Source: Candidatus Saccharimonadota bacterium
GTDB taxonomy: Bacteria; Patescibacteriota; Saccharimonadia; Saccharimonadales; Saccharimonadaceae
NCBI GenBank assembly: GCA_030528625.1
Contig: JAUMYN010000001.1
Coordinates: 186,001 to 250,000 of the forward strand
DNA: 64,000 nt
Reading direction: 5' to 3'
Part shown: piece by piece, positions 34,350 to 47,636 of the stretch
How positions within the stretch are numbered: position 1 is the stretch's first letter
Layout of the letters: each line of letters begins with the position of its first letter
The notes under the pieces: model-generated
What the model was told of the DNA's origin: nothing
Databases searched by the model: none
The model's input: only the letters and a program-made list of their open reading frames with translations
Made by a program: the position numbers and the translations under genes

Positions 34350-34592
34350 ATGACAGGTTTAGTAATCTTCCTCTGGGTACTGTTGGCACTACTAGCAGCC
34401 GCCTCGTTAGTAATACTAGTGATGATTATTGGTCTGTCGCGGCGAATCAATCGGGCGCGGCACGCCGCCGAGCAGACCCAAGGCCATATCGCTGGCCTGA
34501 TGTCAACGGTTTCGACTATCGGTTCGGTGGCGGCACTGTTCGGCGGCCTGAAGCGAAAGGCGACTGCGCGGAGGCGAAAATCGGATGACTAA
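34350..34592 (+). CDS. Small single-pass membrane protein
   Basis: I do not recognise this 80-aa protein. An N-terminal helix (LVIFLWVLLALLAAASLVILVMIIG) is followed by a basic segment (RRINRARHAAEQ), a short Gly/Ser/Ala region and a C-terminal Lys/Arg tail (LKRKATARRRKSDD). The layout is like small YtxH-type envelope proteins, but this is only a resemblance. It overlaps the DUF5665 gene by 8 nt, and the start is fixed by the promoter 6 nt upstream. Confidence 0.72.
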   Translation: MTGLVIFLWVLLALLAAASLVILVMIIGLSRRINRARHAAEQTQGHIAGLMSTVSTIGSVAALFGGLKRKATARRRKSDD

Positions 34593-34884
34593 CCCAAAGA
34601 AGAAACCGCTGACGCAGCGAGTGATAGAGCGTGTCAAAAAAGATAACGAAAACGGCGCGCGCCAGGCGATTCTGGAGGATTTGTTCTATGACTTTCATTG
34701 CTCGCGCCGCCAAGTGTATGCCATGAACTTTATTCGCGGCCTCTTCTTTGGCTTTGGGTCGGTGCTGGGCGCAACGATTTTGATTGCGCTGTTGGTGTGG
34801 TTGCTCGGAAAATTCGGCGATATTTTTCCGCCGCTGGCTGATTTTATCAATACTCTGACCGATACCATGCAACGCCGCCGCTAA
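34585..34884 (+). CDS. DUF5665-like membrane protein
   Basis: The 99-aa protein has a basic N-terminus (~45 residues) and then MNFIRGLFFGFGSVLGATILIALLVWLLG, matching the DUF5665 pattern of small Firmicute and Patescibacteria membrane proteins. A second amphipathic stretch (FPPLADFINTLTDTMQ) ends the protein. The function is unknown. It is translated from inside the preceding 80-aa gene, suggesting that the two proteins act together. Confidence 0.75.
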   Translation: MTNPKKKPLTQRVIERVKKDNENGARQAILEDLFYDFHCSRRQVYAMNFIRGLFFGFGSVLGATILIALLVWLLGKFGDIFPPLADFINTLTDTMQRRR

Positions 34885-34887
34885 CAT

Positions 34888-34895
34888 GCTATACT
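34888..34895 (+). promoter_or_regulatory. Leaderless-type promoter of dnaE
   Basis: TGC-TATACT (hexamer 34890-34895) precedes the dnaE ATG by 7 nt. There is no ribosome site. Confidence 0.6.
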
Positions 34896-34902
34896 AGGGA
34901 TA

Positions 34903-37900
34903 ATGGATGGGGAGAATAACCGACAAACGACGTCGGCGGTGTTGAAGCCGTCTGATTATGTGCACCTGCACAATCATACGCATCACTCGCTGCTGGACGG
35001 ACTGACCAAAATTCCCGATATGGTTGCCAAGGTGAAAGAGCTGGGTATGGAGGCGTGTGCCATCACCGACCACGGCACGATGTCGGGCGTGATTGAGTTT
35101 TATAAAGCAGCGCGCGACGCTGGCATTAAACCCATCATCGGTATCGAAACCTATATGGCGGCGCGCTCGCGGCACGATCGTGATCCAGCCAAGGACAAAA
35201 TGCGCTATCACTTGACGTTGCTGGCCATGAACCATCAGGGCTATCAAAACCTGATGAAGCTCAGCACGGTGGCGAACCTCGAGGGTGTGTATTATAAGCC
35301 GCGCATCGACCATGACCTGCTAGAAGAATACAACGAAGGTATCATTTGCATGTCGGGCTGTATCGGTGGCGAACTGGGCGAGAATCTGCGCAACGATGAT
35401 TACGACAAGGCTAAGGAGATTGCTAGCTGGTATAAATCGGTGTTTGGCGACCGTTACTATATGGAGCTGCAAGATCACGGCCATCCCGAGGCGCGCAGCC
35501 ACTGGGCGGAGCAAAAAAAAGTCAATGACTACATTGAGCGGCTGAGCGAGGAGTTAGATATCCCATGCGTGGTGACCAGCGACGGCCACTATCTCAATCA
35601 CGAGGATCAGGATGCGCACGAAATTTTGCTGTGCGTTGGTACGGGGGCGTATTTGTCTGATGAAAAGCGGATGAGCCTCAAGGATTTTGAATTACACCTG
35701 ACCGAACCAGAAGATATTATTTCCCGCTGGTCAAAGACAAATCCCGGTGCCATCGCCAACACCAAGGCGATTGCCGACCGCTGCAATCTAGAGCTTGAAT
35801 TGGGTGGCATCCTGATTCCGAAGTTTCCGACGCCCAACGGCGAAAGTGAGAAAGAATATCTCGATCACCTCGTATATAGTGGGATGGCGGCGCGCTACGC
35901 CGGGATGAAGCTAGAAGACGCCAAAAAGCTGCCGAATGATGAACTGCGCGCTAAGCTGTCCGAGGAGCAATTGGAACGGCTGGATATGGAGTTTGGCGTG
36001 TTGGATAAAATGGGCTATAACGGCTATTTTCTGATTGTCCAGGATTTTATTAACTGGGGCAAAAGTCAAGGGATTATTTTTGGGCCGGGGCGCGGTTCGG
36101 CGGCTGGCTCTATCATCGCTTATGCGCTGAATATCACCGACCTGGATCCGCTGCATTATGACTTGCTGTTTGAGCGCTTCCTCAACCCTGACCGCATCTC
36201 TATGCCCGATATCGACATCGACATTCAGGATACGCGGCGCGGCGAAGTCATCGAATATTGTGCTAACAAATACGGCCATGAGCGGGTGGCTAATATTTGT
36301 ACTTTCGGTACCATGGCGGCGCGGGCCTCAGTGCGCGATGTGGCGCGGGTATTGCAGGTGCCGTACGGTGAATCTGACCGCCTGGCCAAATTGATTCCGC
36401 CGCCGGTGCAGGGCCGTCACATCCCGATCAAAAAATGCTTAGAAACTGACGCTGATCTGAAAAAAGAATACGAGACCAACCCGACGGCCAAGACAGTGTA
36501 TGACTTTGCGGCGCGTCTCGAGGGGACGATTCGCTCGCACGGCGTGCATGCCGCGGGCGTGGTGATTGCGCCAGATGATTTGGTGAAATACGTGCCGCTG
36601 GAAATGGCGCAAAAAGGCGTGGTGGCGACGCAGTATCCGATGGGGCCAGTGGAAGAGTTGGGGCTTTTGAAGATGGACTTTTTGGGCCTCTCAAACCTCT
36701 CGATTATTAACAACGCGCTGCGTATTATCCGCAAGGTGTACAAAACTGAGATTGACCTGTCGCATTTGCCGCTTGACGATGAAGAGACCTACAAACTCTT
36801 TCAGCGGGGCGATACGACTGGCGTGTTTCAGCTGGAATCTGCTGGCATGAAACGGTACCTGCGCGAGCTGAAGCCCAGCGTCTTTGAAGACATTATCGCC
36901 ATGGTGGCCTTGTATCGCCCGGGGCCGATGCAGTTTATCGACTCCTTCATTAAACGTAAACACGGCGAGGAGGAAATTACCTACCTACACCCCGGCATGG
37001 AAAACTCGCTGAAAAACACTTACGGAATTTTGGTTTACCAGGAGCAGTTTATGCAAATTTCGAAAGAGTGGTGCGGCTTTACCGGCGGCCAGGCGGACAC
37101 CCTGCGTAAGGCGGTGGGTAAGAAGAAAATTGATCTTATGAAAAAGGTTAAGCCGGAGTTTGTCGAAGGCGCAATCAAGGTCGGCGGTGCCACCAAAGAA
37201 ATCGCTGAACAGTTTTGGGATGCACTGGAAGAGTTCGCCAATTACTGCTTCAACAAGTCGCACGCCGCGTGCTACGGTTTGATTGCCTACTGGACGGCGT
37301 ATCTCAAGGCGCATTATCCAGATGCCTTTATGGCGGCCCTGATGACCAGCGACCAGGACGATACCGAGCGTCTGGCGATTGAGATGACAGAATGTAAACA
37401 CATGGATATTGCTGTGCTCAGCCCTGATGTCAATGAATCATTTGTGGAATTTGCAGTGGTGCCTGGCGAGAAAAAAATTCGTTTCGGCATGGCGGCGGTC
37501 AAAGGCGTGGGTGTTGGCGCGGTCGAGGAATTGCTGCGCGCCCGCGAAGAGGGCAAATTCACCAGCGTCGAAGATTTTGCCAAGCGGGTATCCACCAGCA
37601 AGTTTAACCGCAAAGCGTGGGAATCACTCATTAAATGCGGTGCGTTCGACAGCTTCGGCGATCGTTCGGACTTGTTGTTTAATCTCGACACCATCACTGC
37701 CTTTGCGCAAAAAACCCAAAAAGAAGCCGCCAGCGGCCAGACCGATCTATTTGGGCTACTGGGAGATGACGCCGCTAGCGCGCAAGCAACCATGCAATTA
37801 CAAATGGCGCCTACCAAACACACTGACAAAGAGCGCCTGATGTGGGAGCGCGAGCTGATGGGTCTCTACATTTCAGCGCATCCGCTCGACGCCTATGCCA

Positions 37901-38637
37901 CCTACTTGGAAGAGCAGGCGCAGCCGCTCAGCCAGCTGGTACCCGAATATGACAGCCGCGTCATGACGGTGGGTGGCATCATCACCACGGTGCGCACCAT
38001 CCTCACCAAGTCTGGCAGTAAAATGGCTTTTGTTGGGCTGGAAGATAAATTTGGCGAGGGCGAAGTTATCGTATTCCCGAGCCTATATGAGCAAGTCGGC
38101 GCCAAATTGGTGCAGGACGCGGTGATTCGGGTGACTGGCAAAAACTCAGCGCGCGACCGCGACGGTAATTTGGGTTCAGAAAGCAAACTGATCGCCGACA
38201 GTATCGAAGTGATCTCTGATGATGACATCAAAACCTACGAATCGACGGGGCGCAAAATGGACGCGCCAAAAGTCAGTAGCGCGTATAAACAGGAAAAACG
38301 CGCCGCGTATCGCGCTCAGAAAACTGGTCAGCCAGCGTCAATCAGCTCTGGTGCGGCCGCCACCACGCCGCGACATACCGCCGAGCGTTCAATGCCTGCG
38401 CCTGAAGCACCGCCATCCCGCCTGTTTGTCCAGGTCAAAAATCCATCAGACCACGACAAGTTAGTGGCGCTGAAAGCGCTGTGCGGCGAACATGGCGGCA
38501 TGACCGATGTGGTGCTGGTGCTGGGTGAAGGCGACGCCAAGTCAGCTATTCGCTTGCCGTTTCGGGTTGAGCCAGGCGAGGCGCTGCTAGACGGGCTGCG
38601 TTCGCTGCTTGGCACTGATGCGGTGAAACTACGCTAA
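34903..38637 (+). CDS. dnaE: DNA polymerase III alpha subunit
   Basis: The 1244-aa replicative polymerase starts with a PHP domain (YVHLHNHTHHSLLDG, CAITDHGTMSG), which often carries metal-dependent proofreading or pyrophosphatase activity. The palm has GRGSAAGSIIAYAL and catalytic Asp residues in MPDIDIDIQDTRRGEV and LLKMDFLGLSN; the fingers contain the helix around RPGPMQFIDSFIKRKHG. The OB domain (VGGIITTVRTILTKSGSKMAF) and a C-terminal domain follow. The length is typical of DnaE1. Initiation is probably leaderless. Confidence 0.96.
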   Translation: MDGENNRQTTSAVLKPSDYVHLHNHTHHSLLDGLTKIPDMVAKVKELGMEACAITDHGTMSGVIEFYKAARDAGIKPIIGIETYMAARSRHDRDPAKDKMRYHLTLLAMNHQGYQNLMKLSTVANLEGVYYKPRIDHDLLEEYNEGIICMSGCIGGELGENLRNDDYDKAKEIASWYKSVFGDRYYMELQDHGHPEARSHWAEQKKVNDYIERLSEELDIPCVVTSDGHYLNHEDQDAHEILLCVGTGAYLSDEKRMSLKDFELHLTEPEDIISRWSKTNPGAIANTKAIADRCNLELELGGILIPKFPTPNGESEKEYLDHLVYSGMAARYAGMKLEDAKKLPNDELRAKLSEEQLERLDMEFGVLDKMGYNGYFLIVQDFINWGKSQGIIFGPGRGSAAGSIIAYALNITDLDPLHYDLLFERFLNPDRISMPDIDIDIQDTRRGEVIEYCANKYGHERVANICTFGTMAARASVRDVARVLQVPYGESDRLAKLIPPPVQGRHIPIKKCLETDADLKKEYETNPTAKTVYDFAARLEGTIRSHGVHAAGVVIAPDDLVKYVPLEMAQKGVVATQYPMGPVEELGLLKMDFLGLSNLSIINNALRIIRKVYKTEIDLSHLPLDDEETYKLFQRGDTTGVFQLESAGMKRYLRELKPSVFEDIIAMVALYRPGPMQFIDSFIKRKHGEEEITYLHPGMENSLKNTYGILVYQEQFMQISKEWCGFTGGQADTLRKAVGKKKIDLMKKVKPEFVEGAIKVGGATKEIAEQFWDALEEFANYCFNKSHAACYGLIAYWTAYLKAHYPDAFMAALMTSDQDDTERLAIEMTECKHMDIAVLSPDVNESFVEFAVVPGEKKIRFGMAAVKGVGVGAVEELLRAREEGKFTSVEDFAKRVSTSKFNRKAWESLIKCGAFDSFGDRSDLLFNLDTITAFAQKTQKEAASGQTDLFGLLGDDAASAQATMQLQMAPTKHTDKERLMWERELMGLYISAHPLDAYATYLEEQAQPLSQLVPEYDSRVMTVGGIITTVRTILTKSGSKMAFVGLEDKFGEGEVIVFPSLYEQVGAKLVQDAVIRVTGKNSARDRDGNLGSESKLIADSIEVISDDDIKTYESTGRKMDAPKVSSAYKQEKRAAYRAQKTGQPASISSGAAATTPRHTAERSMPAPEAPPSRLFVQVKNPSDHDKLVALKALCGEHGGMTDVVLVLGEGDAKSAIRLPFRVEPGEALLDGLRSLLGTDAVKLR

Positions 38638-43471: not shown

Positions 43472-44430
43472 TTCTTGGTATTGACGAAGTGGGCCGCGGG
43501 CCGTGGGCCGGGCCGCTGGTGGTGGGAGCGGTGTTGTTGGGTGAAGCGCGGATTGAGGGGTTAAACGACAGTAAGAAATTGACAGCCAAGAAGCGCCAGG
43601 CGCTGGACGCGGTAATTCGTGACCAAGCCAGTGCGTGGGCGCTGGGCTGGGTGTCGGCGCGTGAGTTGGATGAGATTGGCATGAGCCAGGCGCTGCGGCT
43701 GGCGTGCCGACGGGCAGTCGAGCAGGTGCAGGCGACGTGTCGAGAGAAGGGCGTCAGGTTTGATGAGATTATCATCGACGGGACGGTCAATTTTTTGCGG
43801 GGTACGGCACTGGAGGAGTATGTAACGACTATGGCGAAAGCCGATGGGCTCATTGCGAGCGTGTCGGCGGCGTCAATTGTCGCCAAGGCGGCGCGTGACG
43901 CGTACATGCAGCAGCAGGACGCGGTGCATCCGGGCTATGGGTTTGCCAGTAATGCTGGATATGGTACGGCGGCACACCAAGCGGGGCTGGAACGGCTAGG
44001 CGCCTGCGCGGAGCATCGGCTGAGCTTCGCGCCGCTGCGGAAGTATGCGGGTGCAGTGAGTGCTGACAGTGAGGCGTCTGCGCCTCCGACAACGCGCAGT
44101 ATCGGCGATGCGGGCGAACAGGCAGTGGCGGAGCGGCTGACCGCGCAGGGGCATGAGATTGTGGCGCGCAACTGGCGCACCAAGTGGTGTGAAATTGATA
44201 TCGTCTCCCGCCGTGAAAACACCCTGTTTTTCACAGAGGTCAAATACCGTAAAAACGCCACGTATGGCGACGGCCTGGCGGCAATTACCACCAAAAAACA
44301 GCAGCAAATGCGCTTTGCGGCCGAGCTATTTCTAACAAAACACCCGCAGTACGGTGAATGCGATATGCAGCTGCTGGCGGTAGACGTCAGTGGTCAGCCA
44401 CCAGAGGTGCAGCGGGTGATTGAACTATAA
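43468..44430 (+). CDS. rnhB: Fusion of ribonuclease HII and a YraN/UPF0102-type nuclease-fold domain
   Basis: The 320-aa protein joins two domains. Residues ~1-195 are RNase HII, which removes ribonucleotides and RNA primers from DNA: DEVGRGPWAGPLVVGAV and SIVAKAARDAYM give the DEDD residues, and LNDSKKL and the catalytic IIDGTVNF are present. Residues ~212-320 match UPF0102/YraN (GDAGEQAVAERL, EIVARNWRTKWCEIDIVSRREN, FTEVKYR), a restriction-endonuclease-like fold with D and ExK residues intact. In many bacteria rnhB and yraN are neighbouring genes; here they share one frame. Confidence 0.92.
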   Translation: MILGIDEVGRGPWAGPLVVGAVLLGEARIEGLNDSKKLTAKKRQALDAVIRDQASAWALGWVSARELDEIGMSQALRLACRRAVEQVQATCREKGVRFDEIIIDGTVNFLRGTALEEYVTTMAKADGLIASVSAASIVAKAARDAYMQQQDAVHPGYGFASNAGYGTAAHQAGLERLGACAEHRLSFAPLRKYAGAVSADSEASAPPTTRSIGDAGEQAVAERLTAQGHEIVARNWRTKWCEIDIVSRRENTLFFTEVKYRKNATYGDGLAAITTKKQQQMRFAAELFLTKHPQYGECDMQLLAVDVSGQPPEVQRVIEL

Positions 44431-46935
44431 ATTGCGAGCCAAAGCTGCTTTGATCGCTGCCGCGTCGCGCTCAATCAACTCCACGCGGGCGGTAATTTCT
44501 GTCAGACCCAGGTCGATGGTGCGGGTCAGGGCGGGTTCGGCATGTAGCGGCGCTGTGAAGGTAGCGAAATCGTCCAGTTCAGCGCGGGTCAGCAAGGCCG
44601 AAGCGGCGTAGCGCAGGAAATCGTCGTAGCTTTTGTCGCCCTTGAAGGTAGTTTCGATCCAGTCCCAATTGCCTTTCAGCCACTGCCACGCCGCCGCGCG
44701 CGATTCGCGGGTACGAATGAGGTAGATGAACCAGCGGCTGGCGTCTTGCGGGCGGATGATAGCGCTGTCTTGCAGCGCGGCCAGCAGGCGCTGGGTGGTG
44801 GCGGCTGACTGAGTGCTGGTCAGCGCCGAGGCGATGTCTAGCTGGAGGTCATTGGACGGTGTGTTCGCATATGTTTCGAGCAACTGGTCAATCAGCTCAG
44901 GCGTTTCAAAATGACGCACCACAGCTGACAGGATGAGAGGGCGGGTTTCGGCGGGTAATTCCTCCAGTGCGGCCGCGTCAAAGCGCCGTTTGGCCTCGCG
45001 AAGCGCCGCGTCGTCCTCGCCATACAGCAGCAGCCCCAGCGCGGTGGAGCGCCGTTCTCGGTCGTCGTCAGATTCGCCTTTGTCTTCGTCCCAACCTAAG
45101 GCCTCAACGGTCGGGCGCGCGAAATCAGCCGACAGTTGTTTGAGTTTAGCGCGAGCCGTCTCATCCTCATCGACAAATTTGCGCAGCTCGCCTAGCAGCC
45201 CAGCGGCCATTGCATAGACTTTTTCGTTTTCTTCGTGTTTCAGCGACAGTGCCAGCGGTAAAAGTTCCGCAGAAGACTGTAATTCAGCGCGTGCCAGCAG
45301 CGACGCGTCCTGTAGTAGGCAGATCTTGTCCAGGGTCGGCAAGGTTGCAATTTCCGCCAGCAGTGCCTGGCGGCTCGCCTCGTCATAGCGCGTCACGAAA
45401 TGTGCGCCTAAGGAGCGGTTCAGGCGAATCGGCTCAGTGGTCGGTACACGCAGCTCCCGCTCGGCCATCAGACTCGGCACTTCCTCACCGCCAAAGAGCG
45501 GAATTGGCCACAACGCGTCAGACGCCTGATGGTCGCCGATGAAAAATCGCTGCTGCGTCAGCCGCACCGATTCACCCTGTCGCGTAATACTCACTAACGG
45601 CAGTCCCGGCTGCGAAATCCAGGCGTTCATCAGCTCCAGTACCGGCTGCCCGCTAGCCGCCTCCAGTTCGCGCCACAAGTCATCGCCGACGGTGTTTTGA
45701 TAGGCAAATTTCTCAAAATACGATTTCAAACCAGCCTGGAACGCTTCTTCGCCGATCAGCCGCCTGGCCATCACTAGCAGCCGCCCGCCCTTGGCGTAGA
45801 CGATGGCTGGGTCAAACAGGGTGCTAATCTCGTCTGGGTGATTGACGTCCACCTGCACTGACTGCACGCCGTCTAGACTGTCGCGCCTGAGCGCCGCCGT
45901 CACTTCGTGGGTGGCAAATTCTTCCCACATACGCCATTCCGGGTGCAGGGCGTCCACCGCCACGTACTCCATCATATTGGCGAAACTTTCGTTCAGCCAC
46001 AGGTCATTCCACCACTGCATCGTCACCAGATTACCAAACCACTGATGGCTCAGCTCGTGGGTAATGACCGTAGCGATAAAGCGGCGCGAGGCTTCGGGCG
46101 TCAGGTGGTCTGCCAGCAGGCAGCTCTCGCGGTAGGTGATCAGCCCCCAATTCTCCATGGCGCCCGACGAAAAGTCCGGCAGCGCCACGTGGTCGGCTTT
46201 TGGCAGCGGATAGCCAACCCCAAAATAGTCACCAAAAAAGTCAATCGAGCGCGTGGCAATGTTGAGTGCAAAATCCAGCGTCTCGGGCGCTTGTGCCGGA
46301 GTGGCCCAAACGTTCACCTCAACGCCCGCCGTGGTGCGCGCGGTTTTGCAGTGCAGCTCGCCGACCACCCATGCCAGCAGGTAGCTGCTCATGCGCGGCG
46401 TGGTGTCAAACGTGGTGACGAGCTGGCCGTTTTCCTCGCGCTGCTGGCGCACCGGCATGTTGCCCAGCACCGTCAGGCCAAGCGCGGTGGTCAGCGTCAC
46501 GTCAAAGGTCGCTTTGGCAGCTGGCTCGTCAACACAGGGAAAGACCTCGCGGGCGTGGTGCGACTCAAACTGGGTGGCAAATAATTCCTTTTTCACGCCG
46601 TCATGTTGGAAATAACAGGGGTACACGCCATGCATAGCGTCGGTGATCGTCCCGGAAAACTCGACCACCACCAGATGTTCGCCTGTGCTCAAACCCTCTC
46701 GGGTCAGGCGTAGTTCATCGTGCTCGCCATGCGAAACTTTGGCTGCCTGTCCGTCGATCAGCGCGGAGTGAATCGTCAAATCTTTGGCGTGTAGCAGCAC
46801 GGCATCGCCAGCCAGCAGTCGCCCATCAATCGTCACTACCCCGGAAAATGTTCGCTTGTCCGCCCGGCTCAAGTCAAGGCTTAAGGTGTAATGCGTTGGT
46901 GAAAAGGTGTCGTGAAGTCGTGGAACATTGGTCAT
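44425..46935 (-). CDS. pepN: Aminopeptidase N (M1 zinc metalloprotease)
   Basis: The 836-aa M1 peptidase has the substrate-binding GAMENWGLITYRE and the zinc site VITHELSHQWFGNLVTMQWWNDLWLNES (HExxH with downstream Glu). It removes N-terminal residues from peptides, probably in the cytosol, since no signal peptide is seen. The length fits the PepN family of Gram-positives, including the long C-terminal helical domain. The gene diverges from the HNH nuclease gene across a 20-bp gap. Its stop overlaps the RNase HII fusion by 6 nt. Confidence 0.95.
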   Translation of the reverse strand: MTNVPRLHDTFSPTHYTLSLDLSRADKRTFSGVVTIDGRLLAGDAVLLHAKDLTIHSALIDGQAAKVSHGEHDELRLTREGLSTGEHLVVVEFSGTITDAMHGVYPCYFQHDGVKKELFATQFESHHAREVFPCVDEPAAKATFDVTLTTALGLTVLGNMPVRQQREENGQLVTTFDTTPRMSSYLLAWVVGELHCKTARTTAGVEVNVWATPAQAPETLDFALNIATRSIDFFGDYFGVGYPLPKADHVALPDFSSGAMENWGLITYRESCLLADHLTPEASRRFIATVITHELSHQWFGNLVTMQWWNDLWLNESFANMMEYVAVDALHPEWRMWEEFATHEVTAALRRDSLDGVQSVQVDVNHPDEISTLFDPAIVYAKGGRLLVMARRLIGEEAFQAGLKSYFEKFAYQNTVGDDLWRELEAASGQPVLELMNAWISQPGLPLVSITRQGESVRLTQQRFFIGDHQASDALWPIPLFGGEEVPSLMAERELRVPTTEPIRLNRSLGAHFVTRYDEASRQALLAEIATLPTLDKICLLQDASLLARAELQSSAELLPLALSLKHEENEKVYAMAAGLLGELRKFVDEDETARAKLKQLSADFARPTVEALGWDEDKGESDDDRERRSTALGLLLYGEDDAALREAKRRFDAAALEELPAETRPLILSAVVRHFETPELIDQLLETYANTPSNDLQLDIASALTSTQSAATTQRLLAALQDSAIIRPQDASRWFIYLIRTRESRAAAWQWLKGNWDWIETTFKGDKSYDDFLRYAASALLTRAELDDFATFTAPLHAEPALTRTIDLGLTEITARVELIERDAAAIKAALARNL

Positions 46936-46955
46936 AGGTTTAGTATACTACACTC
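46936..46955. promoter_or_regulatory. Shared bidirectional leaderless promoter, pepN and HNH nuclease
   Basis: The palindrome AGTATACT (46942-46949) reads TATACT on both strands, giving overlapping -10 boxes (minus 46942-46947, plus 46944-46949). Each start codon is exactly 6 nt from its hexamer. The whole intergenic gap is 20 nt. Any -35 contacts must lie within the opposite coding region. The two polymerases cannot bind at once. Confidence 0.75.
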
Positions 46956-47636
46956 ATGAAGCGGCGATATTTCACGCGGCAGCTGGCGGCACTCGTGGCC
47001 GTTGCGCTTATGGCGCTGGCGCTTTGGGCGGCGCACGTTATACAACCGTCGTCGGGGTCTTTATCGGCGGAACTTCAGCGGCAGTATTTCGGTGATTCAA
47101 CGGCGCAGGTCGAGCTAGCCAAGCTACTTATCAAGGGCCGCGCGCCCAAAACTGGTTACGCGCGCAAGCAGTTTGGCGATGGCTGGGGCAAGATCGGCGA
47201 CTGTTCGGTGCGCGAGGTGATTTTGGCGCGGGATCTAACGGATGTGGTACGGGACGATGACTGTAAAGTACAGCGCGGCACGCTGCACGATCCCTACACA
47301 GGTCAGACGATTACTTTTCAGCGCGGGCCAGATAGCTCGGCCCAGGTGCAAATCGACCACGTCGTCGCATTGTCCGACGCTTGGCAAAAGGGCGCGCAGC
47401 AGCTGAGTCCAGAGGAGCGGCGGCGTTTTGCCAATGATCCGCTCAATCTGCTGGCGGTCGATGGCCCGGCCAATCAAGCCAAGGGTGATGCCGATGTCGC
47501 CAGTTGGCTGCCGCCCAATAAAGCCTTTCGCTGTCAGTACGCCGCTCGGCAAGTGGCTGTCAAGCGGCGCTACCAGTTGTGGGTAACGGCGGCCGAGGCC
47601 GAAGCACTGCATAAGGTATTGCAGTATTGTCAATAG
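46956..47636 (+). CDS. Secreted HNH nuclease (DUF1524/GmrSD C-terminal-like)
   Basis: The 226-aa protein has an N-terminal signal or anchor (LAALVAVALMALALWAAHVI). It continues with CSVREVILARDL, DPYTGQTITFQRG, then VQIDHVVALSDAWQKGAQ and FANDPLNLLAVDGPANQAKGD, where the DH and downstream NxxxxxxxN-K residues match the DUF1524 HNH nuclease. DVASWLPPN and a final CQYAARQVAVKRRY are family-typical. It is probably exported and degrades DNA outside the cell, for uptake, nutrition or interference with other bacteria. Confidence 0.88.
   Translation: MKRRYFTRQLAALVAVALMALALWAAHVIQPSSGSLSAELQRQYFGDSTAQVELAKLLIKGRAPKTGYARKQFGDGWGKIGDCSVREVILARDLTDVVRDDDCKVQRGTLHDPYTGQTITFQRGPDSSAQVQIDHVVALSDAWQKGAQQLSPEERRRFANDPLNLLAVDGPANQAKGDADVASWLPPNKAFRCQYAARQVAVKRRYQLWVTAAEAEALHKVLQYCQ

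Follow-up and report, generated by a model that had tools for sequence, protein, structure and literature searches.

The original description of bidirectional promoters is said to be that of Warman, Grainger and colleagues in 2021. As set out in passages of PMC12825309 and PMC10268837, such promoters contain a short symmetric -10 region that RNA polymerase uses both ways, with start sites 7-25 bp apart, and they often lie between divergent genes. The common spacing in E. coli and Salmonella is 18 bp (also 10 and 23), with -7T and -11A pairing reciprocally (passages of PMC12825309 and PMC10268837). At five E. coli bidirectional promoters, a passage of PMC12825309 reports basal activity too low for competition, which appears on strong one-sided activation. 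A separate body of work concerns leaderless genes, for which passages of Zheng 2011 (PMC3160421) and of a Deinococcus-Thermus study (PMC12340547) place a TANNNT box some 12 bp before the start codon. Here we analysed a 20-bp gap between two divergent genes of a Saccharibacterium. We consider it highly probable that this gap is a minimal sigma70-type bidirectional promoter, leaderless both ways, which arose via gap contraction and provides low, independent expression of its two genes rather than a switch.

The window analysed, a stretch of 64,000 nucleotides, sits in contig C3 of a genome of 788 kb in 6 contigs. The gap (46936-46955, AGGTTTAGTATACTACACTC) parts a pepN gene (44425..46935, minus strand, ATG at 46935-46933) from a divergent HNH nuclease gene (46956..47636, plus strand, ATG at 46956-46958). 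The pepN product is a pepN-like M1 aminopeptidase with Pfam domains PF01433, PF17900 and PF11838, alignable from residue 1 in most relatives; it is a Peptidase_M1 (PF01433), yet it scores below the NCBIfam pepN equivalog cut-offs. The nuclease carries GmrSD_C (PF07510) and is of the DUF1524 type. Its N-terminal segment is hydrophobic, and judged by this N-terminus the protein is probably secreted.

The full 26 bases at 46933-46958 read CAT-AGGTTT-AGTATACT-ACACTC-ATG, the CAT at 46933-46935 being the pepN start codon on the minus strand. The 8-mer AGTATACT (46942-46949) gives TATACT on both strands, exactly 6 nt from each ATG, and the two hexamers (46944..46949 on the plus strand for the nuclease, 46942..46947 on the minus strand for pepN) overlap by 4 bp. 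The 8-mer extends to the 10-bp palindrome TAGTATACTA (46941-46950), which includes the shared -10 box, and the strandless gap carries the entire predicted core promoter. An earlier note on this DNA had described the 20-bp gap, the TATACT on both strands and the 6 nt to each start, and all parts of that description are correct. It had also taken the one box as the -10 element of both genes, a reading that our analysis supports.

By a leave-one-out matrix score among the leaderless-type sites of the genome sample, the nuclease hexamer ranks 23/47 and the pepN hexamer 35/47. By geometry, the upstream promoter contacts lie inside the opposite coding sequence, as the earlier note had it. No clear -35 element was found hidden there, and a slight excess is seen in the nuclease direction only. 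The nuclease -35 position (TGGAAC, 46921..46926, plus strand, within pepN codons) is weak, with a -35 matrix part of -0.3, and the pepN position (ATATCG, 46965..46970, minus strand, within nuclease codons) holds no recognisable element, with a -35 part of -1.7. Across 19 strictly shared loci of the family, defined below, the best TTGACA match averaged 3.1/6 vs 2.6 off-register on the nuclease side, and 2.3 vs 2.5 on the pepN side. An extended -10 TGn is absent at the locus, with TAG before TATACT on both strands. Good -10 matches are no proof of activity, and the low score in the pepN direction, without a -35, counts against the reading proposed here.

We sampled the genome through the window and ten 20-kb stretches, 264 kb in all with 277 ORFs called greedily. 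Within this sample, sigma70-like hexamers before in-frame start codons peaked at 6 nt with 39 matches, against 16 at 7 nt and 0-8 at each remaining distance from 0 to 24, which defines a genome-wide class with a -10-like box at a fixed short distance from the start codon. The window holds 7 of the 39 sites, including those of pepN and the nuclease. Since the standard distance from hexamer to +1 is 6 nt, this peak would place +1 at the first base of the start codon. Of the 47 ATGs preceded by TAnnnT at this 6-nt distance, 45 have a pyrimidine (C/T) at position -1, compared with 251/388 of all early in-frame ATGs, and T-15 and G-14 each reach 77%. The preference at -1 is, as far as the sequence tells, that of an initiator placed on the A of ATG. 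With -10 boxes peaking 6 nt before starts, leaderless mRNAs beginning at this A are well supported, and both genes of the pair look leaderless, as the earlier note had claimed. Other genes in the window have leaders of a Shine-Dalgarno-like kind; both start modes are thus in use in this genome. The window also contains a 15-bp divergent gap (34888-34902) between frames 34516-34887 (minus) and 34903-38637 (plus), with TATACT 7 nt before the plus ATG; the minus-side box is just 3 nt from its start, so that start may be miscalled.

As a word, the palindrome is not unusual in the window, where the 8-mer alone occurs once vs 0.22 expected from shuffles. The pattern CAT-N6-AKTATAMT-N6-ATG has one exact match there, which is still the sole match when up to 2 mismatches are allowed (0.37 expected). 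Across the family, this pattern is clearly above chance: in 151 genomes it has 40 sites, spread over 36 genomes and 26 of 60 genera, whereas the reversed pattern has 5, a pattern with its palindromic core scrambled has 10, and spacings of N4/N4 and N9/N9 yield 5 and 2, respectively. Spacing of 7/6 gave 55 sites in 44 genomes vs 4 for the reversed pattern. A relaxed pattern with the 18-bp E. coli geometry, less specific than the 21-bp one, gave 59 sites vs 51 in its control. We rejected a restriction of the arrangement to the family, since a phylum-wide draw of 192 genomes yielded 18 sites vs 4 in the control, and 15 of these (vs 3) came from the 185 genomes outside the family, where sites are rarer than the family's 40 in 151.

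We inspected the flanking frames at 30 of the 40 sites, one per genome in 30 of the 36 genomes. Both ATGs open frames of at least 60 aa at 27 of them, the exceptions being L249, L264 and L272. Seven are pepN/nuclease, and one (L259) joins the nuclease to another partner. By Pfam, the arrangement joins many unrelated gene pairs, such as dihydroorotate dehydrogenase and OMP decarboxylase (L248), two methionine sulfoxide reductases (L265), D-Ala-D-Ala ligase and an MgsA-type AAA ATPase (L253), and DUF520 and PAP2 (L246). DUF520/PAP2 is a second gene pair with a recurring shared box, seen in four genomes from three genera (L246, L250, L251, L254); the genes were identified by Pfam for L246 and by N-terminal sequences for the other three. 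The earlier note had suggested a search for the same palindrome-based gaps elsewhere in the genome. A second shared box lies at C3:9828-9854 (L126), in which TAGTATACTA stands at 6 and 7 nt between an HhH-GPD glycosylase gene and a membrane-like 57-aa frame. Congeners G006 and G001 have one 7/6 site each that resembles it.

We then followed the pepN/nuclease pair itself, whose two genes are intact and keep their divergent orientation in relatives, through the family. The nuclease is present in 138/151 genomes at 142 places, with pepN divergent upstream at 85; the remaining 57 (54 stretches plus L003, L103 and L121) lack a divergent pepN in the DNA taken, in some cases because the contig stops. 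We scored 81 of the 85 pairs, omitting L112, L151, L159 and L196, which have no nuclease start within 130 bp of the pepN start. Scored with a -10 matrix set by hand that favours 6-7 nt, and with the nuclease start chosen partly by box score, 19 pairs share one box in the strict sense, with TATAMT as both hexamers, an overlap of 4 bp and gaps of 20-23 bp; 8 have other overlaps, and 54 have separate boxes, a class in which some nuclease start choices are probably wrong (e.g. L114, L142, L168). The 19 strict shared boxes are spread over 6 of 32 genera, and 4 of them lack the pyrimidine at -1 on the nuclease side. Gaps reach about 125 bp in relatives that keep the pair, and they are at least 80 bp in 11 of the 54 separate-box relatives, a few probably from a miscalled nuclease start.

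These loci bear on whether both directions are real. Conceivably, only one direction is a leaderless promoter. The symmetry would then be a coincidence, and the other gene would be led from elsewhere, for example by a promoter inside its neighbour. A passage of PMC10268837 describes the -10 consensus as close to symmetric by nature, and in this genome palindromic boxes also stand at leaderless starts for which no leaderless partner was found (L122, L128). Yet in the separate loci both genes come with a -10 box of their own, usually 6 or 7 nt from the start (48/54 for pepN and 52/54 for the nuclease, by a scoring that favours these distances), and at the 19 shared loci both genes keep TATAMT, as the class definition requires. 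We thus regard a one-sided promoter as unlikely, and a promoter active in both directions remains our preferred reading.

The cores of the 19 strict shared loci are ATTATACT in nine, AGTATACT in seven and ATTATAAT in three. The imperfect ATTATACT indicates that two overlapping -10 hexamers are kept, not perfect symmetry, and it refutes perfect palindromy as a conserved trait. We also discarded a compensatory change from AGTATACT to ATTATAAT within the genus as proof of selection on the palindrome, since the half-changed ATTATACT is common. The earlier note had made its reading depend on conservation of the palindrome in close relatives with the same gene pair, which held in part: the shared box is found in 4 of 8 scored congeners, but perfect palindromy is not kept. 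This genome (G000) and its congener G006 agree at every position of the 12-bp core TTTAGTATACTA, whereas 7 of the 8 gap bases outside it differ.

A palindrome could also be the binding site of a dimeric regulator and no promoter element at all. The perfect 10-bp inverted repeat would suit such a protein, and TAGTATACTA has 6 copies in the whole genome vs 1 for the reversed string. However, the imperfect core accounts for almost as many shared boxes as the perfect ones do (9 vs 10 of 19), two -10 hexamers at 6-8 nt from the start codons are retained in the strict shared variants, and the family-wide enrichment is gone at N4/N4 and N9/N9 spacing. We give a regulator site hardly any credence and return to the shared promoter.

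In the mechanism that we propose, RNA polymerase would read the single symmetric -10 box AGTATACT in either orientation. Each mRNA would begin 7 nt past the hexamer, which is the A of ATG, leaving both leaderless, and the spacing class predicts divergent start sites 21 bp apart. The locus would belong to the genome-wide leaderless class TGnTATAMT-N6-ATG, and it would have arisen as the gap shrank until the two -10 hexamers fused on a common TATA, at the cost of the extended -10 TG. The pepN box carries TGn in 41 of the 54 separate loci, often as TGnTACAAT, and in 0 of the 19 strict shared loci. This loss is forced, because the -7T of one direction is an A at -14 of the other, where G is needed; with this overlap geometry, only the TATA core can be read both ways.

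The shared form was probably reached repeatedly through gap contraction. On a quick single-gene pepN tree (81 rows, many weak branches), the shared and separate states change 10 times, and 8, 5 and 5 times when branches with support below 80, 90 and 95 are collapsed; gain and loss are not distinguishable on this tree of one short protein. The shared state is phylogenetically clustered, with 8 changes vs a shuffled mean of 15.4 (weak branches collapsed).

Such clustering might also mean that the shared box was selected as a means of mutual exclusion, by which expression of pepN and of the nuclease would be coupled or balanced, in line with the minimal switch or balance device of the earlier note. 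Its premise, that two polymerases are unable to load together, is stated for bidirectional promoters in a passage of PMC12825309, which describes steric exclusion at such sites and notes possible repression of one direction when the other is activated. Against this, 54 of the 81 scored relatives have separate boxes and gaps extend to about 125 bp, so exclusion is no conserved property of the pair. Shared and separate states coexist in genus g1 (four each of 8 scored), and both states are also found inside g17 and g24. The same arrangement lies between many unrelated gene pairs, and basal competition was negligible at 5/5 tested E. coli promoters (passage of PMC12825309). Taken together, the separate-box relatives and the E. 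coli basal-activity result argue against a dedicated switch, and we hold the device to be quite improbable. A bidirectional promoter that is not a switch fits better: polymerase would load in one direction at a time, as is expected here and already described for bidirectional promoters, and the two genes would probably be expressed constitutively, at a low level and independently of each other. Their products may well be scavenging enzymes of a host-dependent bacterium. More tentatively, and as a reading that we hold less likely than not, the arrangement may be a recurrent Saccharibacteria gene-start module of 20-22 bp, in which one -10 box gives two leaderless mRNAs with starts 21-23 bp apart and the promoter, the start sites and the start codons form a single fused unit. 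It would have been acquired more than once and perhaps retained for tying two outputs to one polymerase-binding event.

Several other observations were made along the way. In a second compact class of pepN/nuclease gaps, of 29-32 bp, the boxes stand back to back in the form ATTGTAnCAnAGGTATAMT, and the pepN direction has an extended -10 (L187, L139, L118, L107, L117, L143 and similar). At locus L185 of genome G052 the gap measures 14 bp and its two TATACT boxes stand in swapped order (ATATACTAGTATAC), each closer to the opposite gene's start and 7 nt from its own ATG. Cultured Saccharibacteria have Actinobacteria as their host phylum. Nuclease homologues with roughly 50-65% identity occur in many Actinobacteria, including Arthrobacter, Bifidobacterium and Micrococcus (loci L049-L100), and such close homologues in the host phylum suggest exchange.

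Compared with described systems, the locus unites two themes that are both known already, the bidirectional promoter and the leaderless gene. Like the Warman/Grainger promoters, it has overlapping -10 elements on both strands. Unlike them, its predicted starts are 21 bp apart around a common TATA core where theirs are commonly 18 bp apart, and both of its mRNAs are predicted to be leaderless, with no room for a UTR; the word 'leaderless' is absent from the main text of PMC12825309. Like the leaderless genes in passages of PMC3160421 and PMC12340547, it has a -10 box directly before the start codon, without a ribosome-binding site. Those passages assign one gene to each box, whereas here one box would serve two genes, and neither paper uses 'divergent' or 'bidirectional' in its main text. 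The overlapping lysG/lysE promoters of Mycobacterium tuberculosis, as described in part of PMC5648196, differ in their 108-bp gap and in the dedicated regulator that binds a repeat there, and their leaderless start belongs to a separate second promoter, unlike the shared box here. In searches of an open-access library we found no description of a 21-bp leaderless bidirectional geometry. With the predicted start site fixed at the ATG, a count of shared boxes needs nothing beyond the sequence, which makes promoter architecture readable in a largely uncultured lineage. The same gene pair at gaps of 14-125 bp offers a natural series for polymerase competition and for loss of the extended -10. On our best reading, the pepN/nuclease gap is a compact leaderless variant of known bidirectional promoters, not a special switch.
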